DNA of 64,000 nucleotides from Pyrinomonadaceae bacterium (GTDB lineage Bacteria; Acidobacteriota; Blastocatellia; Pyrinomonadales; Pyrinomonadaceae): contig JAVEDP010000004.1 of the NCBI GenBank assembly GCA_030841085.1, positions 62,001-126,000 on the forward strand, in the 5' to 3' direction. Below, piece after piece: positions 38,565 through 51,862 of this stretch. Both the position numbers and the translations under genes were made by a program. Under the pieces are notes generated by a model. The model was not told the origin of the DNA. It made no database searches and was given only the letters and a program-made list of their open reading frames with translations. The first letter of the stretch is position 1; the number at the start of each line of letters is the position of its first letter.

Positions 38565-39701
38565 ATGACAGTCGTATTTCGCTTAATGGCCACTGCGCTG
38601 GCGCTCGTTATGTGCATCAGTGGTTTGCCTTTTGGACTGCGGTGGCTTGACACCGCTTTGCGGCGCGGCGGCTTGACGCCGCTTTTGGCCATCGCAAGCC
38701 ACGCCCAGGGACAACGACCGCGCGTTACTGTCCCGACCAAACCGCCGGCGCCACAAAAACCTGCAAGCGGTGATTCCGATGCCGACGCTGAAGTAGTGCG
38801 CGTCGAGACAGATCTCGTCAACACTCTATTCACAGCCGTCGATCAAAATCGCCACTTCGTCACGTCGCTGCGGTCCGAAGACGTGCGCATTTTTGAGAAT
38901 GACGTACCGCAAACCGTAAGCATGTTCCAACGCGAAACTGATCGGCCATTGTCGCTGGCGATTCTTATCGACACCAGCGAGTCACAAAGGGGCGTGATGG
39001 CCCAGGAAAAGCTGGCCGCGCGCGCGTTTGTTGAGTCGGTGATTCGGCCCAGCGTCGATCGTGCGGCAGTGCTTTCGTTCACCGGCATTCCCAAACTAGA
39101 GCAAGCGCTGACCGGCGATCCTGTCCGGCTGCGAGAGGGAATTGATCAAGTGCGCGTGGAATTGTCCGCGGAAAATGAGCGGCTGCTGGCGGCTGGCGAA
39201 GATCCGCTGCCGATTGAGCAAGACCCGAGCGGTTACACCAGTATTTGGGATGCACTGTGGCTCACCATTCAGGAACACCTGGTTAAAACTCCTGACAACA
39301 CGCGCCGCGCAATTATTCTCTTGTCGGACGGCGACGACACTGCCAGCCACAAGGATAAGCAGGAAGTGATCGACCTGGCTGTGAGGTCGGACGTCGTGAT
39401 CTATTCGATTGGAATTCGGGATGCAGATTTTCCCGAGGGAAAACTCGACGCCGGCGCTTTACGAAAAGTGTCTGATAAAACCGGAGGACGCACGTTCATT
39501 CCCGCGGGACCGGGCGACCTGACCCAGGCCTTTTCACAGATCGATCAGGAGCTTCGCTCGCAGTACTTGATTGCTTACTCACCGACGAATAAGAATCGCG
39601 ACGCAACATACCGGCGACTGCGCATCGAGATCATCAACCCCGAACTACGTAAACAAAAACTACAGTTGCTCTACCGCCAGGGCTATTACGCCAAGAAGTA
39701 G
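38565..39701 (+). CDS. VWA-domain protein (VWFA-related Acidobacterial family)
   Basis: ILIDTSESQRGVM; ILLSDGDDTASH; YLIAYSPTNKNRDATYRRLRIEI; N-terminus overlaps a repeat copy. Confidence 0.87.
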   Translation: MTVVFRLMATALALVMCISGLPFGLRWLDTALRRGGLTPLLAIASHAQGQRPRVTVPTKPPAPQKPASGDSDADAEVVRVETDLVNTLFTAVDQNRHFVTSLRSEDVRIFENDVPQTVSMFQRETDRPLSLAILIDTSESQRGVMAQEKLAARAFVESVIRPSVDRAAVLSFTGIPKLEQALTGDPVRLREGIDQVRVELSAENERLLAAGEDPLPIEQDPSGYTSIWDALWLTIQEHLVKTPDNTRRAIILLSDGDDTASHKDKQEVIDLAVRSDVVIYSIGIRDADFPEGKLDAGALRKVSDKTGGRTFIPAGPGDLTQAFSQIDQELRSQYLIAYSPTNKNRDATYRRLRIEIINPELRKQKLQLLYRQGYYAKK

Positions 39702-39851
39702 CGCTGACGTTGGCGGGATAATGTTCCTTTGGCGGTATTATCACGCAACGGGGCATATAATGCGCTTATTCCGTTATCCAGCAGCAGCGGGATAATATAT
39801 GGTTATGTTGCTTATTCTGTCGTACAACTCTCGCGAAGGGAAGTGAACCTC

Positions 39852-40220
39852 ATGCCGCGATTCGTCATCTACCCGAAGGAAGGCGACCGTCTTGAGTTGG
39901 AGTTCGAAAGGTTTGTGGTCAACGCTCAAAACCGCGAAATCGAACTCTACAACCAACATGGCGAACAATGTGGCGCGTTCGTGACGCGTGCCAACGCCGC
40001 TGTTGTTCCAACGGAACTGCGACCGACCCAACGGCTAGACATGCTGACGTTTACTGTTTACTTAGCAAACCATCATGACGAACCATTCTAAATCAACGGA
40101 ACGCATTTCGTTCGGCAGGATGATGGTTACGAATTTCGACTTAACGGCAACCGTCCTGTTCCCTCGGTTTACATTGACCCCATACAAATCGTAGGTCTAA
40201 CGTATGTGCAAACCAACTGA
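39852..40220 (+). pseudogene. Cassette A gene, unknown function, interrupted by in-frame TAA at 40089-40091
   Basis: MPRFVIYPKEGDRLELEFERF...HHDEPF*INGTHFVRQDDGYEFRLNGNRPVPSVYIDPIQIVGLTYVQTN*; frame stays open after the TAA for 42 codons. Confidence 0.6.
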
Positions 40221-40229
40221 ACGGACGCA

Positions 40230-40335
40230 ACATAACACATCGTTGGACGCGAGCGGCGGAAGCGTGTTTCGCATCATAGTTGGTCCGGCGACGCTTGATT
40301 GAATTCGCGCCGCCGCGTCAACTCAAACGTTGGGC
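40230..40335 (+). other. attC site 1 (type A)
   Basis: acataac...cgttggacgcgagcggcgg...ccgccgcgtcaactcaaacgttgggc; 106 bp. Confidence 0.88.
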
Positions 40336-40369
40336 GGCTTCACTTGCCGATGATGGAAAGGACCTAACG

Positions 40370-40678
40370 ATGCCCTGGTACGAAATTGGCGCTAGTCGCG
40401 ATCAACCCGAGCGCGGTAAAGACCGTCTGATTCGCATGACTCAAACGATCTGGGAATCGAGCGGCAAATCCGATGGCTTCGCATTGTTGGGTGCGCACAC
40501 AACATCCGACGGAAAATTTGACGTTTGTTACCTGACGCCTGCTTGCCAAGATCCAATAAATGGAAGCGGCGGCGGTTATTTCACTTTTTGGCAAGTCATC
40601 CCCATTGACAAAAAACCTCCCCGAGAGTCACTAGAGGTTCTTGTCGGAGATCCTAAAGCGTTGGCCTTGCTTGACTGA
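40370..40678 (+). CDS. Cassette B protein, unknown
   Basis: ATG 40370 with ggaaagga upstream; MPWYEIGASRDQPERGKDRLIRM..., 102 aa. Confidence 0.7.
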   Translation: MPWYEIGASRDQPERGKDRLIRMTQTIWESSGKSDGFALLGAHTTSDGKFDVCYLTPACQDPINGSGGGYFTFWQVIPIDKKPPRESLEVLVGDPKALALLD

Positions 40679-40689
40679 TTGACCGCGCC

Positions 40690-40795
40690 GCCCAACAAAT
40701 CGTTGGACGCGAGCGGCGGTAGCGTGTTTCGCATCATGACTGGTCCGGCGATGCGTTCGTGAATTCGCGCCGCCGCGTCAACTCAGACGTTAGAT
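40690..40795 (+). other. attC site 2 (type A)
   Basis: gcccaacaaatcgttggacgcgagcggcgg...cgccgccgcgtcaactcagacgttagat; 106 bp. Confidence 0.9.
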
Positions 40796-40875
40796 TGCTT
40801 TGGGTCCTATCAGGATTGAAGAAATGGGTCTTTATTCGATCATACTAGACTACTCTCTTATGGAGGCTCTAGACC

Positions 40876-41256
40876 ATGCCACCTAAATTGCTATCCCGAT
40901 ATAAAAGAATTGTTGCGAGTAGCACGCTCACCGCATTTTTGCTCGTTTATTCGAGTGCCATAGGTACAATAAATTATTTCAAATTAAGAAACATAGATCC
41001 TCCTGTGGCGGAGCAACAGAGTGAGTCCTTAGCTAGAAAGTTACTGGAAGAGCTAAGCACACACCCACCAGCCAGCGAAGAGGAGAACCGCATTTTTGCG
41101 GCGAAACTTGGCGTGATTGATCTTCGTCCGATCGCGCCTTGCTATGATTTGCGAGAAGCCGCTAAGCGAGAGTTTGACCGATATTACCGTAACTCAACGC
41201 CTGAAAACATAGAACAACTCAAGTCAATTCTCGGTTCGATAGTTAGGGACTGCTAG
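40876..41256 (+). CDS. Cassette C protein, N-terminally membrane-anchored, unknown
   Basis: MPPKLLSRYKRIVASSTLTAFLLVYSSAIG..., 126 aa. Confidence 0.7.
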   Translation: MPPKLLSRYKRIVASSTLTAFLLVYSSAIGTINYFKLRNIDPPVAEQQSESLARKLLEELSTHPPASEEENRIFAAKLGVIDLRPIAPCYDLREAAKREFDRYYRNSTPENIEQLKSILGSIVRDC

Positions 41257-41314
41257 TAATGTCGTTGCTCTATTTTCGTCGGTTCCGTCGGTTCTATAGT
41301 GTCACCAGAGCGCA

Positions 41315-41422
41315 ATCTAACAAGTCTTGCAGCTGACGGCGCGGTAGCATGCTCTTCAAGTAACCTTATTCCAGCGGGCTTGAATCCTGATCGCGCGCCG
41401 CAGCTGAAGGCCAGCGTTATGC
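41315..41422 (+). other. attC site 3 (type B)
   Basis: atctaacaagtcttgcagctgacggcgcgg...cgcgcgccgcagctgaaggccagcgttatgc; 108 bp. Confidence 0.88.
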
Positions 41423-41460
41423 GGCGGGAGTCTCTCGATGACCGCCACTTGAGCACGACA

Positions 41461-41988
41461 ATGAAAGACGATTTTCAAATCTTGGCTTGGATAGCCACCG
41501 TTGTCGCCGCGGTCTTCGCGATTTTCCAATGGCGTAAGAATCTTCGATGGAAACAAGCTGAAATGGCTAAGACTTGTTTGGACGAAATCTGGAACGACCG
41601 TTTTGCTTTTGCTGCACTCAAAATGCTCGACTGGACGGGCTTGTCCTTTCCGTTACCGGACGATGGCGGCAACACGCCTCAGATATCGCACGAACAACGT
41701 CGTGCTTCTCTACGCGTCGCTAATACTGAGTTTCCTGCCGGCGATCCGGGCCCGTTTATTCGCGACGCCTATGATCGTTTGTTTGACGGCTTCGAACGGC
41801 TCGAGCATTTCATTCGCATCAAACTAATTCGATTCGAAGATGTGGAGCCTCGGCTTAGATATTATGTTGGCAAACTTGGTACGGCTGATGAACGCCCGGT
41901 GGCCGAAATATTTCTCAGCGCGTATGACTTCAAACTGGCGTTGTCCTTTCTCGAACGATTTGCATCTTGGAACCCGGACGCCGCATAA
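41461..41988 (+). CDS. Cassette D protein, single-TM, unknown
   Basis: MKDDFQILAWIATVVAAVFAIFQWRKNLRWKQAEMAKTCLDEIWND..., 175 aa; TAA overlaps attC4 R''. Confidence 0.72.
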   Translation: MKDDFQILAWIATVVAAVFAIFQWRKNLRWKQAEMAKTCLDEIWNDRFAFAALKMLDWTGLSFPLPDDGGNTPQISHEQRRASLRVANTEFPAGDPGPFIRDAYDRLFDGFERLEHFIRIKLIRFEDVEPRLRYYVGKLGTADERPVAEIFLSAYDFKLALSFLERFASWNPDAA

Positions 41989-42088
41989 CAAATCGTTGGA
42001 CGGGAGCGGCGGGAGCGTCTTTCGCAACTAACTTGGTGCGGCGGAGGGCGCTTTGATTCGCGCCGCCGCGTCAACTCAACCGTTCGGT
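41983..42088 (+). other. attC site 4 (type A)
   Basis: gcataacaaatcgttggacgggagcggcgg...ccgccgcgtcaactcaaccgttcggt; 106 bp. Confidence 0.9.
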
Positions 42089-42115
42089 GCTTTACTGTAA
42101 CTCAGAGGAGATCAA

Positions 42116-42754
42116 ATGCGACACCTTTTCCTTGCCGGTCTCGTCATGCTTCAGGTTCTTTTAGCTGACTCAACCCTGGCCCAGTCGCCAACGCGCGCTG
42201 TAACGGAAGCCGGGCAAAGAGTGCTCCTATTTCCAGACGGGTCATGGAAACCGGACGTCAGTAAACCACCGAAGGCATCCCCGGTCGGTAAGTCACCTAA
42301 GCCGGGACGGATAACCCTCCTAGCCCGGGCGAAGTACAAAGACTATGAGAAGGCGACCTTTAGCTTCGAGCATGGAGTTCGGGATGATCCAAAACTTGAG
42401 CTCACCCTGAACGATTGGGATCTCGAGTACGGGAATGGCGGCGACGCGCTCGGAGTCACAATGGTTACCGACGATCGTAGTCGAATCAAGGATCTCGGCA
42501 CCCTGAGATGGTCCGATATCAGGAAGATTCCGGAGCTGCCGGCGCATCCCGTGCCCACACGGGAGCCCGTCGTGCCTGCCGTCGTGGGGCATATGTATCT
42601 GGTTCATACGCGTGATTCGAATTCCGACTTCTACGCACTCTTTCGCGTCGAGGAGCTCGTTCACGGCGACAGCTGCACGATCACGTGGAAGATCGTACCG
42701 AATCCCGAGCCTGACAGCGCGCCGAACAAAGCCTTGCAACTGACGGCGCGATAG
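42116..42754 (+). CDS. Cassette E secreted protein, C-terminus read from attC5
   Basis: Signal peptide MRHLFLAGLVMLQVLLADSTLAQ; ends ...PNKALQLTAR* inside attC5. Confidence 0.72.
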   Translation: MRHLFLAGLVMLQVLLADSTLAQSPTRAVTEAGQRVLLFPDGSWKPDVSKPPKASPVGKSPKPGRITLLARAKYKDYEKATFSFEHGVRDDPKLELTLNDWDLEYGNGGDALGVTMVTDDRSRIKDLGTLRWSDIRKIPELPAHPVPTREPVVPAVVGHMYLVHTRDSNSDFYALFRVEELVHGDSCTITWKIVPNPEPDSAPNKALQLTAR

Positions 42755-42827
42755 CATGTTTCCCAAGTAACCTTGCTCCTTCACTTGAATACTGATCGCG
42801 CGCTGCAGCTGAATGCCAGCGTTCGGC
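42721..42827 (+). other. attC site 5 (type B)
   Basis: gccgaacaaagccttgcaactgacggcgcg...cgcgcgctgcagctgaatgccagcgttcggc; 107 bp. Confidence 0.88.
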
Positions 42828-42869
42828 GCTTCGTTTCTACTTGCGGGCGATTTGATAAGGAATCAGAAG

Positions 42870-43418
42870 ATGGCCAGATTGATTTCGTTAGCGCTGGCGT
42901 TGCTGATAACGAACACTCCAATCGTGAGTTCCCATTGGCATGCCTACGGTTTTCAGAATAGCGCCGAGGTCATCCAGGACGACGCAGAGCATCCGGGCAT
43001 CGAACTAATGCTTACTCCTCTCGATTGGAGTCGCCAAGCCAACCAGTATGTTCGCAAAGAGAAGTTCAGGGTCGGGGAGAGAGTGCTCATTCAGGTTTCT
43101 GTGATCACGACCGAGCCAAGAGAGGCCTCGTTAACAAGTACCTTTAAACAACATCGGCCGAGGCTAATGAAGGATGGTCATTTAGTGCCACATCGACCAG
43201 GGTCGCCCACATGGGGCCAAGTTGATTGCATTCTGACCCGCGTAATCTTTGTTGGCATTCCAGCCAATCAACCAACACAATTGGCTTCTTTCAATATGGC
43301 TGATTGGTACCGGCCGCTTGAGCCCGGTGAGTATCAGCTTACTCTTTGGGTACGTTTACTTAGCTGTTCGGGGCCGTTGTACAAATCTCACTCGTTAACA
43401 TTTGAAGTGACCAAGTAG
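42870..43418 (+). CDS. Cassette F secreted protein, unknown
   Basis: MARLISLALALLITNTPIVSS signal peptide; 182 aa. Confidence 0.72.
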   Translation: MARLISLALALLITNTPIVSSHWHAYGFQNSAEVIQDDAEHPGIELMLTPLDWSRQANQYVRKEKFRVGERVLIQVSVITTEPREASLTSTFKQHRPRLMKDGHLVPHRPGSPTWGQVDCILTRVIFVGIPANQPTQLASFNMADWYRPLEPGEYQLTLWVRLLSCSGPLYKSHSLTFEVTK

Positions 43419-43432
43419 TTCATGACCACGCT

Positions 43433-43536
43433 GCCGAACAATCGTTGGACGCGAGCGGCGGAGCGTGTTTCGCAAGATAATTGGTCTGGCGATGCTTGAA
43501 TGAAATCGCGCCGCCGCGTCAACTCAGGCGTTCGAC
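43433..43536 (+). other. attC site 6 (type A)
   Basis: gccgaacaatcgttggacgcgagcggcgg...cgccgccgcgtcaactcaggcgttcgac; 104 bp. Confidence 0.9.
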
Positions 43537-43552
43537 GGCTTATTTTTGTAAG

Positions 43553-44086
43553 ATGAAGTTAACAAAATTTATAATTGCTTGTTTCTGCTTACTTGTTATC
43601 GGTGGCGATGCGCTTGGACAAACAACCGAGAGCTCTGTTTCTGAGCTTCAGCGTGTTGCAAAAGTTCTCGAAAAGTCCGCGACCGTTTTAGGCTATAAAA
43701 CCGTAAGAGGTTTTCGTCCTACGGACGAATGGGAAACAGAAGAAAAGAAAGTCTTGCTTGAAAACCATGCATATTACACTTTGTTCGGCGAAGATTCAGA
43801 CGGTTCGTGCCTTAGGACCAACGGACGCATCGGCGTAACAATCTTAATCTTCAAGAATGATGAATTAGCTCGTCGGCAAGTTGATGAAATGAAAAAGGAT
43901 CATTCAGGTAATATTGGGTTTAAGGTTACAAAGTCCGACGAAACAGGCTATCTCCTTGAAGAAGTCAACGGCTTTTATGCTGCCGTTATCCAAGACACAA
44001 AAGTTATTTTCTTTGAAGATAGAAGTCGCGCTCAAGCCGACAATATAAAATCGCTGGTTGAGTCGCTTGCGAAAGAAGCGCGTTAA
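43553..44086 (+). CDS. Cassette G secreted protein, unknown
   Basis: MKLTKFIIACFCLLVIGGDALGQ signal peptide; 177 aa. Confidence 0.72.
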   Translation: MKLTKFIIACFCLLVIGGDALGQTTESSVSELQRVAKVLEKSATVLGYKTVRGFRPTDEWETEEKKVLLENHAYYTLFGEDSDGSCLRTNGRIGVTILIFKNDELARRQVDEMKKDHSGNIGFKVTKSDETGYLLEEVNGFYAAVIQDTKVIFFEDRSRAQADNIKSLVESLAKEAR

Positions 44087-44098
44087 ATGTTACGCGCG

Positions 44099-44200
44099 AT
44101 CGAACAAATCGTTGGACGCGAGCGGCGGGAGCGTTTTCTCAACTAGCTTGGGGCGGCGAAGGGTGCTTTGATTCGCGCCGCGTCAACTCAATCGTTCGGC
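44099..44200 (+). other. attC site 7 (type A, 3-bp deletion in L' side)
   Basis: atcgaacaaatcgttggacgcgagcggcgg...cgcgccgcgtcaactcaatcgttcggc; 102 bp. Confidence 0.88.
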
Positions 44201-44230
44201 ATCTTATTGTTTTCAAATTCGAGAATAAAA

Positions 44231-44668
44231 ATGCACATCGTTTTTCTTGCCTCGGTACTTCTCAGCCACAGTATTATTCCGGCAAGTGTGAATACGTGGT
44301 TTCCTCAGTCAACATCCCTTGATAAATCTTGTCAGATTCGCAAAATATACATTGCTGAGTTTGACGAGTCAGCTGCTTCGCTGAATTTTCGACGGCGGCT
44401 GGGGAAGCGGCTCTCGAAGAAATTCGTCATTATGGCAAAGCCTGATGAGGCTGATGCAATACTGACCGGAGAATTTTCTGCACTTTCTGGTTCGGGTTAT
44501 AGTTATGTAACGTTCGAGCATGCTGAACTAAAAACTGCTAATGGACAGCTAGTTTGGCATGGTGACTTTGATCTTAAGCTCAGCAACAGCTTGTGGGGTC
44601 TCGGGAATGGTCATATCGGAAATGCCGCAATGCGCATTGCTAAAGACATACTAAACGCTTGTAAGTGA
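44231..44668 (+). CDS. Cassette H secreted protein, unknown
   Basis: MHIVFLASVLLSHSIIPASVNTW; 145 aa. Confidence 0.7.
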   Translation: MHIVFLASVLLSHSIIPASVNTWFPQSTSLDKSCQIRKIYIAEFDESAASLNFRRRLGKRLSKKFVIMAKPDEADAILTGEFSALSGSGYSYVTFEHAELKTANGQLVWHGDFDLKLSNSLWGLGNGHIGNAAMRIAKDILNACK

Positions 44669-44718
44669 TGCTCCCCTGTAAAAAGCAGAATCAATGTAGC
44701 TCTATACCTACCGGCGAT

Positions 44719-44865
44719 GCCGAACAAATAGTTGGACGCGAGCGGCGGAGGCGTGTTTCGCAACTTGATTCGTTGGACGCGAGCCGCGGGGAGGTGTTTC
44801 GCATCATAATTGGTCCGGCGCTGCTTGATTGAATTCGTGCCGCCGCGTCAACTCAGACGTTGGGC
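44719..44865 (+). other. attC site 8, hybrid with duplicated 5' half (type A)
   Basis: gccgaacaaatagttggacgcgagcggcgg...gtttcgcaacttg then a second cgttggacgcgagccgcgg...gtcaactcagacgttgggc; 147 bp. Confidence 0.82.
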
Positions 44866-44873
44866 ATCTTCTC

Positions 44874-45224
44874 ATGACTATAGTGAAGCAAGTTCTCGGG
44901 CATCACGTTACCTTCGGCGGTGAACGGCATTCTGGTTGGCTACCCCAAGGTGCCGCAATGCCTAAGCCTACGCCGACCAATGAAGTCGCTCTCAACATCA
45001 CGATTGAATCCGACGGCGCGGGCTATCTTTTGTGTTGGGTTTCATCGGACCGCACAGTCGCCGGTGATTTTGGTATCAAACGTTGGCGGACGCCGAACGG
45101 GCGGGCGCTCAAGACTTCGGCATCGCTGCCGACCAATGGCAAACTCTCGCCTGAGTCGCTCGCTTCAACGGCGATGCCCAACAAATCGTTGGACGCGAGC
45201 GGCGGGGGCGTGTTTCGTAACTAG
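44874..45224 (+). CDS. Cassette I protein, C-terminus read from attC9
   Basis: MTIVKQVLGHHVTF...; ends ...MPNKSLDASGGGVFRN* inside attC9. Alternative ATG at 44958. Confidence 0.6.
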   Translation: MTIVKQVLGHHVTFGGERHSGWLPQGAAMPKPTPTNEVALNITIESDGAGYLLCWVSSDRTVAGDFGIKRWRTPNGRALKTSASLPTNGKLSPESLASTAMPNKSLDASGGGVFRN

Positions 45225-45281
45225 CTTGGTGCGGCGCAGAGTGCTTTGATTCGCGCCGTCGCATCAGCCCAAACGTTCGAC
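45176..45281 (+). other. attC site 9 (type A)
   Basis: gcccaacaaatcgttggacgcgagcggcgg...cgccgtcgcatcagcccaaacgttcgac; 106 bp. Confidence 0.88.
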
Positions 45282-45323
45282 CGGCTTTTTAACGTTTCAG
45301 CTTGTAAACCAGGAGACACTCAC

Positions 45324-45800
45324 ATGAAGAAAACAATTTTCCTCGTACTGGTGATCTTGTCATCAACGATGGTCGTACCGCCTTATCGGCATTATGCCTC
45401 GGCACCTCCACCACCTTCAGTTTCCGGCCTCTGGGATTTCACACTCAACGTCAATCGGATGGTTGGAAGGGACGGTTTCGTTAGAAAACAGCTACGCACC
45501 TTCGAGTGGGTAATTCGGCTAAAACAGGAAGGTGGCAAGGTGACGGGTGATCTCGCTGGTGGCCGTGGCTCACGGGGCGAAAGCGTCTGTGCCGACGCTG
45601 ATGTCCGGGGCTCACTAAATGGCTCACGTATCGAGTTCGTGGTTTCGTATCAAGGGGCCTGTTGCAGCCAAGAACAAGAAAAATTTGTCGGTGAAATCGA
45701 CGACGAAGGTCGCAGAATTACCGGAAAACTTGAACCCGTCGATGTCCCGCGAACATCTTGTGATCTAGCATACGCTGACGTAACCGCCACCAAACGGTGA
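45324..45800 (+). CDS. Cassette J secreted protein, unknown
   Basis: MKKTIFLVLVILSSTMVV signal; 158 aa. Confidence 0.7.
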   Translation: MKKTIFLVLVILSSTMVVPPYRHYASAPPPPSVSGLWDFTLNVNRMVGRDGFVRKQLRTFEWVIRLKQEGGKVTGDLAGGRGSRGESVCADADVRGSLNGSRIEFVVSYQGACCSQEQEKFVGEIDDEGRRITGKLEPVDVPRTSCDLAYADVTATKR

Positions 45801-45804
45801 CGCC

Positions 45805-45904
45805 GTCGAACAATTCGATGGACGCGAGTAAAACCAGCGGGCTTGTCATAGACAACTTGGCCGTGACGCATTTGTCTCCCGCCGCGTCAACTCAAACGTT
45901 GGAT
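45805..45904 (+). other. attC site 10 (diverged type A)
   Basis: gtcgaacaattcgatggacgcgagtaaaaccagcggg...cccgccgcgtcaactcaaacgttggat; 100 bp. Confidence 0.82.
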
Positions 45905-45922
45905 GGCCTAAGGAGTAATCGT

Positions 45923-46432
45923 ATGAGTCTCGAAGGGATTTTCATCAATGGCGTTTATCCTGGAGTCCTCAGTGACATCTACCGTGTCCATAGTCTCGTC
46001 CCGGATCAAATACTTTACCTCCAACCATTTTCTGGACAGCGCATCGTAGAACTATCTGACAATCGCCCATCAGCGGATGCGTCTGTCAGATTGTTTCTGT
46101 CGTTAACCGATGACCTCCCTACAGTCCGGTATTCGTGTGAGATTGTGGGTTGGAATGATAAACGTGAGCTTACAGGCCGCAAGCGCGAAATAATCGACAC
46201 TGTCATCCGGTCGTTCCAGCCCACCGAAGAGGGGGTGTATGCAGTCGCTCGCGGTATTGAATGCGTCAATCTTCTTTCTGTTTGGCGGATGCGTGAATTA
46301 TCGAAACCGTTTTCAGTCGCTGAGTTGCGCAAAGCTGTCGACGATCAGCCCGTTTCGACCAAGCGACAAACTGCAGGCGGGTGGGTGTATGTGAAGTATC
46401 CGACTCAGGAGTGGCTGGAATCTCGCTTCTAG
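45923..46432 (+). CDS. Cassette K protein, unknown
   Basis: RBS-like aaggagt; MSLEGIFINGVYPGVLSDIYRVHSLV..., 169 aa. Confidence 0.72.
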   Translation: MSLEGIFINGVYPGVLSDIYRVHSLVPDQILYLQPFSGQRIVELSDNRPSADASVRLFLSLTDDLPTVRYSCEIVGWNDKRELTGRKREIIDTVIRSFQPTEEGVYAVARGIECVNLLSVWRMRELSKPFSVAELRKAVDDQPVSTKRQTAGGWVYVKYPTQEWLESRF

Positions 46433-46454
46433 GAGTCCTTTCTGTATGCCGGCC

Positions 46455-46561
46455 ACCCAACAAAGCCTTGCGACTGACGGCGCGATAGCATGCTTCTCAA
46501 GTAACTTCTTTCCTTCAGCTTGAATGCTGATCGCGCGCCGCAGCTGAAGGCAATCATTATG
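46455..46561 (+). other. attC site 11 (type B, degenerate R')
   Basis: acccaacaaagccttgcgactgacggcgcg...cgcgcgccgcagctgaaggcaatcattatg; R' is ATTATG rather than GTTATG. Confidence 0.8.
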
Positions 46562-46918
46562 TCAACTAAACCACAAACCATAGACGAATACCTTGCCCGG
46601 ATAAGTAGTGATAAACGGGCGGCGCTTGAGAAGCTCCGCAGGGCCATCAAAGCCGCGGCGCCAAAAGCTGAAGAGTGCATTAGCTACCAGATGCCCAGCT
46701 TCCGTCTTAACGGCAGAATGCTCGTGTCCTTTGCCGCTTGGGCAAATCATTGCGCCTTCTATCCCGGCAGTTTCCCGTTAGAGATCCACAAGAAAGAACT
46801 CAAGAAGTACGACACCAGCAAGGGCACGCTCCGTTTTCCAATAGACTCTCCTTTGCCGGCCACGCTCGTACGCAAGTTGGTAAAGGCTCGGATCGAACAG
46901 AACAGTGCTAAACAATGA
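46559..46918 (+). CDS. DUF1801-family protein
   Basis: MSTKPQTIDEYLARISSDKRAALEKLRRAIKAAAPKAEECISYQMPSFRLNGRMLVSFAAWANHCAFYP; ATG overlaps attC11 R'. Confidence 0.8.
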   Translation: MSTKPQTIDEYLARISSDKRAALEKLRRAIKAAAPKAEECISYQMPSFRLNGRMLVSFAAWANHCAFYPGSFPLEIHKKELKKYDTSKGTLRFPIDSPLPATLVRKLVKARIEQNSAKQ

Positions 46919-50290: not shown

Positions 50291-51862
50291 CTACAACGGA
50301 ATGTTACCGTGCTTCTTCGGCGGGTTTGTGTCGCGTTTGTTTTCAAGCAGTGAAAGTGCACGGATGAGTTTCGGTCTGGTCAATGCCGGTTCGATTACTT
50401 CATCAACAAAGCCTCGTTCGGCAGCGACGTATGGATTCGCAAACTTATCTTCCAACTCAATAACGCGCGAGCGGCGTGCCGTTTCCTTGTCCTTCGCTTC
50501 ACTAATTTCCCGCCGGTACAAAACACCGACAGCGCCTTCAGCGCCCATCACCGCGATCTCGGCGGACGGCCAGGCAAAGTTAACGTCAGTGCGAATGTGT
50601 TTTGACGCCATCACGCAATAGGCCCCGCCATAAGCTTTCCTGGTTATCACTGTCAGCTTCGGCACCGTCGCTTCGGCAAACGCATACAGCAGCTTCGCGC
50701 CGTGACGAATGATGCCGCCGTGCTCCTGCGAAATGCCGGGTAAAAAACCAGGCACATCTTCAAAGACAATCAACGGCACGTTGAAGCAATCGCAGAAACG
50801 CACGAAGCGCGCTCCTTTGACCGAAGCGTCGATGTCCAAAACTCCGGCCAGAAATGCCGGCTGGTTAGCAACAATTCCCACCGGCCGCCCATCGAGCCGC
50901 GCAAAGCCGACGCAGATGTTCGGAGCGTGATGCTGCTGAACCTCAAAAAAGTAACCGTCATCAACCACTGCCGCAATCACTTCGCGAATGTCGTAAGGTT
51001 GATTTGACGCTTCCGGAACGATCGTGTTGAGCTTCTCTTCGGTCCTGTCGGGCGAATCGGTCGGCACTACTCGCGGAGCGTCGTCAAGATTATTTGAAGG
51101 AATGAACGACAGCAGCTCGCGAACCATTTGCAGAGCATGCTCGTCTGAATCTGCGGCGAAGTGCGCGACGCCCGAGATGCGGTTATGAGTCATAGCGCCG
51201 CCGAGTTCTTCTTTGGTCACGTCCTGGTGCGTCACTGTCTTAATAACGTCGGGACCCGTAATGAACATGTACGACGTGTCTTTCACCATGATGTTAAAGT
51301 CGGTGATTGCCGGACTGTAAACCGCGCCGCCGGCGCATGGTCCAAGAATGCAACTGATCTGCGGCACGACGCCGCTCGCCAGCGTGTTGCGCAAAAAGAT
51401 GTCGGCATAGCCGCCGAGACTGACAACGCCTTCCTGAATGCGCGCTCCGCCGGAATCATTCAGCCCAATAATCGGCGCGCCCACCTTCATCGCCAGGTCC
51501 ATCACTTTGCAAATCTTTTCCGCATGCGTTTCGGAAAGGGAACCACCAAAGACTGTGAAGTCCTGCGCAAAAACAAAAACCTTACGGCCATCGATCAATC
51601 CGTGACCGGTGACCACGCCATCGCCGGGATATAGTTGCTGTTCCATGGCAAAATCTTTCGAGCGATGGACCACCAATTTATCGAACTCTTCAAAACTTCC
51701 ATCATCAAGCAGGAACTCGATGCGCTCACGCGCAGTCAGCTTGTTTGCGGCGTGCTGTTTGTCAACGCGCTCAGCGCCACCGCCGGTTTCCGCCTTCAGC
51801 GAACGCTCTTTAAGTAGCTGGAGTTTGGACTTGGATTGTTTGGGTTGTTGTTTGGAAGTCAT
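50291..51862 (-). CDS. Acyl-CoA (propionyl-CoA-type) carboxylase beta subunit
   Basis: [69 protein letters not shown]. Confidence 0.93.

Follow-up and report, generated by a model that had tools for sequence, protein, structure and literature searches.

The locus and its attC sites

The window, that is, the whole stretch of 64,000 nucleotides of DNA from a soil-type acidobacterium (Pyrinomonadaceae) analyzed here, contains a series of 11 attC-bounded cassettes, which follow a chromosomal gene for a VWA-domain protein and are followed by genes for a DUF1801 protein and, further to the right, a carboxyltransferase (Table 1). The cassettes are arranged in a single orientation, range in size from 416 to 739 bp, and contain approximately one ORF each, invariably on the forward strand. 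An earlier note on this DNA had given the extent of the array as 40230–46461; its heptamer coordinates proved accurate, but the array already starts at 39802, and the last attC site ends near 46561.

Table 1. Features of the cassette array, its flanks, and attI-like array heads at other loci (window coordinates unless a locus is named).
Feature	Position	Strand	Remarks
VWA-domain protein gene	38565–39701	+	chromosomal left flank; Pfam PF00092, 1e-9
attI-like site	39712–39804	+	heads the array; its GTT (39802) is the opening of cassette 1
Cassette 1	39802–40328	+	R' gttatgt, R'' acataac; 10-bp match
attC 1	40230–40335	+	R'' to R'
Cassette 2	40329–40788	+	ORF 40370–40678; 10-bp match
attC 2	40690–40795	+	
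Cassette 3	40789–41415	+	ORF 40876–41256; 10-bp match
attC 3	41315–41422	+	second stem type
Cassette 4	41416–42081	+	ORF 41419–41988; 11-bp match
attC 4	41983–42088	+	
Cassette 5	42082–42820	+	ORF 42116–42754; 6/7 pair
attC 5	42721–42827	+	second stem type
Cassette 6	42821–43529	+	ORF 42870–43418; 7/7 pair
attC 6	43433–43536	+	
Cassette 7	43530–44193	+	ORF 43553–44086; 6/7 pair
attC 7	44099–44200	+	
Cassette 8	44194–44858	+	ORF 44231–44668; 10-bp match
attC 8	44719–44865	+	147 bp; tandem 41-bp duplication of left arm
Cassette 9	44859–45274	+	ORF 44874–45224; 10-bp match
attC 9	45176–45281	+	
Cassette 10	45275–45897	+	ORF 45324–45800; 7/7 pair
attC 10	45805–45904	+	divergent
Cassette 11	45898–46561	+	ORF 45899–46432; 6/7 pair
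attC 11	46455–46561	+	second stem type; degenerate right core (R') ATTATGT
DUF1801 gene	46562–46918	+	Pfam PF08818, 1.3e-17; start codon in or adjoining degenerate attC 11 core
Carboxyltransferase gene	50291–51862	−	right flank; Pfam PF01039
Further intI-less attI-like array heads, this genome and G094	L048:11134–11208; L049:7435–7533; L255:3594–3657; L248:2179–2239; L249:1983–2038		

All 11 attC sites of the window show the box order R''-L''...L'-R' with AAC/GTT cores, and all except one are about 100–108 bp long. The mean column identity among them is 72%, and on the top strand two stem families can be distinguished, one starting with TTGGACGCGAGCGGCGG and the other with TTGCAGCTGACGGCGCG. 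On the L'' side of the bottom strand, a pair of extrahelical bases with the spacing T-N6-C could be read directly from both stem types. The boxes, the extrahelical bases, the GTT/AAC cores, and a pairing that continues past 7 nt to about 10 are shared with the attC sites of known integron cassettes (Bouvier et al, 2009; PMC2727003); among the attC types described previously (PMC3053210), G is the commoner second extrahelical base, whereas it is C here. The unusual length of attC 8 is accounted for by its left-arm duplication (44731–44771 and 44772–44812), the two copies of which are 80% identical. As DNA folding z-scores neither separated the attC sites from shuffled sequences nor the bottom from the top strand (z between −0.6 and −1.4 for ordinary sites), the assignment as attC rests on the anatomy of the sites. 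The window contained neither an Rfam match nor a tRNA.

When the genome was searched with a model derived from ten of the attC sites, 49 places matched at E ≤ 0.001. Misalignment of the two stem types left no more than 8 pairs in the structure model generated with MAFFT and RNAalifold, yet sites were found well with it. Besides the group in the window, on contig C2, attC groups were present on C41, C43 (two groups), C22, and C9, that is, at five loci beyond the window. The same attC family adjoins intI in relatives, for example on contig C12 of G094 (intI at 148802–149743, attC at 151261–151368). In relatives, draft contigs frequently terminate no more than about 250 bp from an attC site (e.g., G098 C454, G097 C516, and G094 C12). 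Because contigs break within arrays, the array counts for G094, G097, and G098 are lower bounds.

Pairing of R' and R'' within cassettes

The earlier note had reported that the heptamer opening each cassette (R') is the reverse complement of the heptamer closing it (R''), and had taken this as a sign of past excision and integration as circles. Upon recounting, the 11 pairs matched at 7/7 positions in eight cassettes and at 6/7 in the remaining three. Shuffling R'' among the 11 cassettes, the null that the note had proposed, lowered the number of matching positions from 74 of 77 to 56.7 ± 3.35 (P = 5e-6) and that of perfect pairs from eight to 1.36 (P = 1e-5). Because GTT/AAC is invariant, all information in the heptamer resides in positions 4–7. 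The strongest control was a physical one, in which each R'' was compared with the R' at the far end of its attC, where the next cassette opens. Only 50 of 70 positions matched in this way, with a single perfect pair, compared with 68 of 70 positions and eight perfect pairs when the same ten cassettes were paired internally. The match is thus a property of the cassette and not of the repeat copy.

The match over seven positions is real, but the heptamer does not delimit it, as pairing continues to 10 bp. When shuffling was restricted to cassettes within each of the two attC stem types, 67 of 77 matches were observed at positions 4–10, compared with 43.3 ± 5.3 (P = 4e-5). Across the genome (42 cassettes on five contigs), positions 4–7 gave 148 matches, compared with 90.9 ± 5.6 after shuffling, and positions 8–10 gave 95, compared with 50.8 ± 4.8, or with 64.6 ± 5.0 when the exchange was limited to cassettes having identical R'' heptamers. 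At positions 11–16, the number of matches (58, compared with 64.9) was at chance level; per-position agreement in these 42 cassettes exceeded the shuffled level by far up to position 10 and had fallen to chance by position 12. The same picture emerged for 63 cassettes from related genomes (151 matches at positions 8–10, compared with 75.0 ± 6.2; positions 11–16 at chance). Cassettes of class 1 integrons from plasmids likewise pair beyond position 7 (30 matches at positions 8–10, compared with 18.0 ± 3.0), these counts being a lower bound, as some pairs span two cassettes because the simple attC finder missed sites. The extension to 10 bp was considered as a novelty and discarded as such, since self-pairing over 9–11 consecutive nucleotides has already been published for most cassettes (Bouvier et al, 2009; PMC2727003).

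That the copies resemble each other, with GTT/AAC common to all, would also be expected of a plain dispersed repeat lying between genes, the end matches being coincidences of a common heptamer, but this explanation has practically no standing left, as the match was destroyed by shuffling R'', even within a stem type or heptamer class, and the pair sits within the cassette and not within the repeat copy, in agreement with the earlier note, according to which such a repeat would not give per-unit matching.

By the standard definition, the attC belonging to a cassette is that carried by its circular form (PMC2674596), and the crossover falls between G and TT (PMC3518468; PMC12901181). Pairing of R' and R'' within each cassette, irrespective of the neighboring one, is what closed circles and a G^TT crossover predict, which supports the proposed movement as circles. 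Each cassette would accordingly be a unit that moved as a circle, and the cassettes would have been inserted successively at attI by an integron integrase working on folded bottom-strand attC. On the folded bottom strand, IntI would cleave the core between G and TT; the terminal bases of the cassette's attC, at least six of them, would then form the beginning of the cassette upon insertion. This would explain why R'' pairs with the R' at the start of its own cassette and not with the adjacent R'. Per-cassette pairing is a known consequence of the G^TT crossover; the observation is correct but textbook, as both its length and its per-cassette nature are already in the literature. For a phylum that has received little study, it does confirm textbook integron chemistry; the Acidobacteriota had already been listed among the integron-bearing phyla (PMC8618304).

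An attI-like site at the head of the array

The array starts at an attI-like site. Its 93-bp head shows homology to the stretch that separates intI from the first cassette in an integron on contig C29 of G094: with the attI of that integron as a single query, the window head was found at E = 2.1e-6, and a profile from which the window sequence had been left out found 39712–39804 at E = 1.6e-9 over all DNA examined. The attI sites adjoining intI in Pyrinomonadaceae (G094 C29, G094 C12, and G090 C154) are, like the window copy, about 75–100 bp long and end in ...GGATAATATATRGTT or ...GGTATAATACKTAGTT at the first cassette; the difference is that no integrase gene adjoins the window copy.

As an alternative, the array could be an ordinary CALIN (cluster of attC sites lacking an integron integrase), created when an integrase acting from elsewhere inserted cassettes off target, at a site other than attI; no intI adjoins the array, and CALINs, for which off-target insertion has been proposed as one origin, are common (PMC8618304). 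The homology of the head to the attI beside intI on G094 C29, together with the agreement between other array heads of the genome and the two attI types described below, makes this origin improbable. The array does have at least two attC sites and no adjacent integrase, as CALINs do, and with chromosomal integrons and CALINs, it shares attC-bounded cassettes with one ORF each, one orientation, and no adjacent intI; it differs from a CALIN in its attI-like start, a feature on which the common definition is silent because IntegronFinder does not search for attI outside class 1 (PMC9024848). Compared with a complete integron, attI is present at the head, as judged by sequence homology only, and intI beside it is missing.

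A second attI type adjoins intI in G090 C154 and G094 C12. In the genome of the window, it heads one of the two arrays on C43 (C43a) and that on C9, and it is also present at the VWA locus of G090 and, in degenerate form, of G094. The head of the other C43 array (C43b) is of the same type as that of the window. Four array groups of this genome thus start at recognizable attI-like sites. In G094 (about 30 contigs), which has two complete integrase genes, on C12 and C29, attI copies followed by attC sites are located on C5, C9, and C3. The intI-less heads comprise two sequence types, both of which also adjoin intI in sister species, and none of the intI-less attI copies examined had an integrase match next to it. 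Further attI-like matches, on C12 of the window genome and C7 of G094, had no attC nearby. No description of dispersed attI heads was found in searches of open-access papers. What is new here is that the window array starts at an attI-like site homologous to the attI beside intI in a sister species; that several arrays in the genus start at attI-like sites without an adjacent integrase is a modest extra.

No intact integrase gene found in the genome

In the genome (98.9% complete, 43 contigs), no intact integron integrase was found, none of the matches exceeding the NCBIfam family cut-off, and no IntI match adjoined the window array. The best TIGR02249 matches reached 77 bits (cut-off, 265), originated from genes elsewhere, and left out the middle of the model (about 183–240), the region by which IntI is told apart from XerC/D-like recombinases. 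An integrase above the cut-off was present in 38 of 120 genomes of the family. At the head of the C41 array, the largest one (L047:8507–8557), a stretch of 17 residues shares 82% identity with the N-terminal part of the integrase from G094 C12 (E = 6e-4 over 21 loci), lies in the orientation expected for intI, and is followed by stop codons; this single short match probably represents a decayed integrase gene.

With the assembly in 43 contigs, a short integron contig could be absent, and an integrase gene might be hidden in an assembly gap, the integron being still active. The frequent ending of relatives' contigs at attC would fit this scenario. On the other hand, the window array is embedded in a contig of 240 kb and flanked left and right by chromosomal genes, no attC match of the genome lies near the end of any contig checked, and the intI-like remnant at the C41 head suggests decay. 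We therefore regard a hidden integrase gene as unlikely, if less so than off-target insertion. As no intact integrase was found in the genome, the wording of cassette movement as "past" was right, and as no integrase gene exceeded the family cut-off, current activity is unproven.

Interpretation of the array

Considering the attC architecture, the extrahelical bases, the complementarity of R' and R'' within the same cassette, the approximately one ORF per cassette, and the single orientation, the region is almost certainly an integron gene-cassette array of 11 cassettes with an attI-like start and no integrase gene beside it. The integrase would later have been lost, or would have worked from another locus; deletion of intI from once-complete integrons and one integrase acting in trans are both possible. 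A wider proposal, which we put forward tentatively and hold to be somewhat less than an even bet, is that of a dispersed family of integron arrays in the genus, in which intI-less attI loci head arrays that one integrase encoded elsewhere fills in trans, the window genome having kept its attI-headed arrays after the loss of intI. With attI-like starts in four array groups of this genome, not every array without an integrase can be put down to random scatter. Should a single integrase serve several arrays headed by attI, the integron content could be distributed across a chromosome, and would then be missed by current software, which ignores attI outside class 1. The finding as such is ordinary integron biology, to which the dispersed attI heads are a modest addition.

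The locus in relatives and the cassette products

The VWA gene has an orthologue at the same locus in G090 (85%) and G094 (68%). The gap between the VWA and carboxyltransferase genes spans about 10.6 kb in the window genome, about 8 kb, with attC sites, in G094, and about 4.3 kb in G091; in G098, the two genes are only 28 bp apart (blastn coordinates), and the locus is empty. The array locus is thus empty in one relative (G098) and used in another (G094). Relatives of the carboxyltransferase at 81–86% identity occur in Pyrinomonadaceae, Blastocatellia, and other Acidobacteriota. In the family sample, no relative shared these cassettes at the DNA level, the only exceptions being attC stretches and a single match at 84% over about 285 bases, the end of which was an attC; recent exchange of these cassettes was therefore not seen.

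None of the proteins encoded by cassettes 1–10 had a Pfam match over the cut-off (best E = 0.001, for cassette 7) or a match in a PADLOC search, so no defense function is claimed; the protein of cassette 11 had no Pfam match either. The DUF1801 gene is possibly a former 12th cassette without a recognizable attC. The ATG within the ATTATGT of the last attC is its likely start (window 46555–46918). As read by eye, the products of cassettes 5, 6, 7, 8, and 10 (window 42116–45800) carry apparent N-terminal signal sequences.
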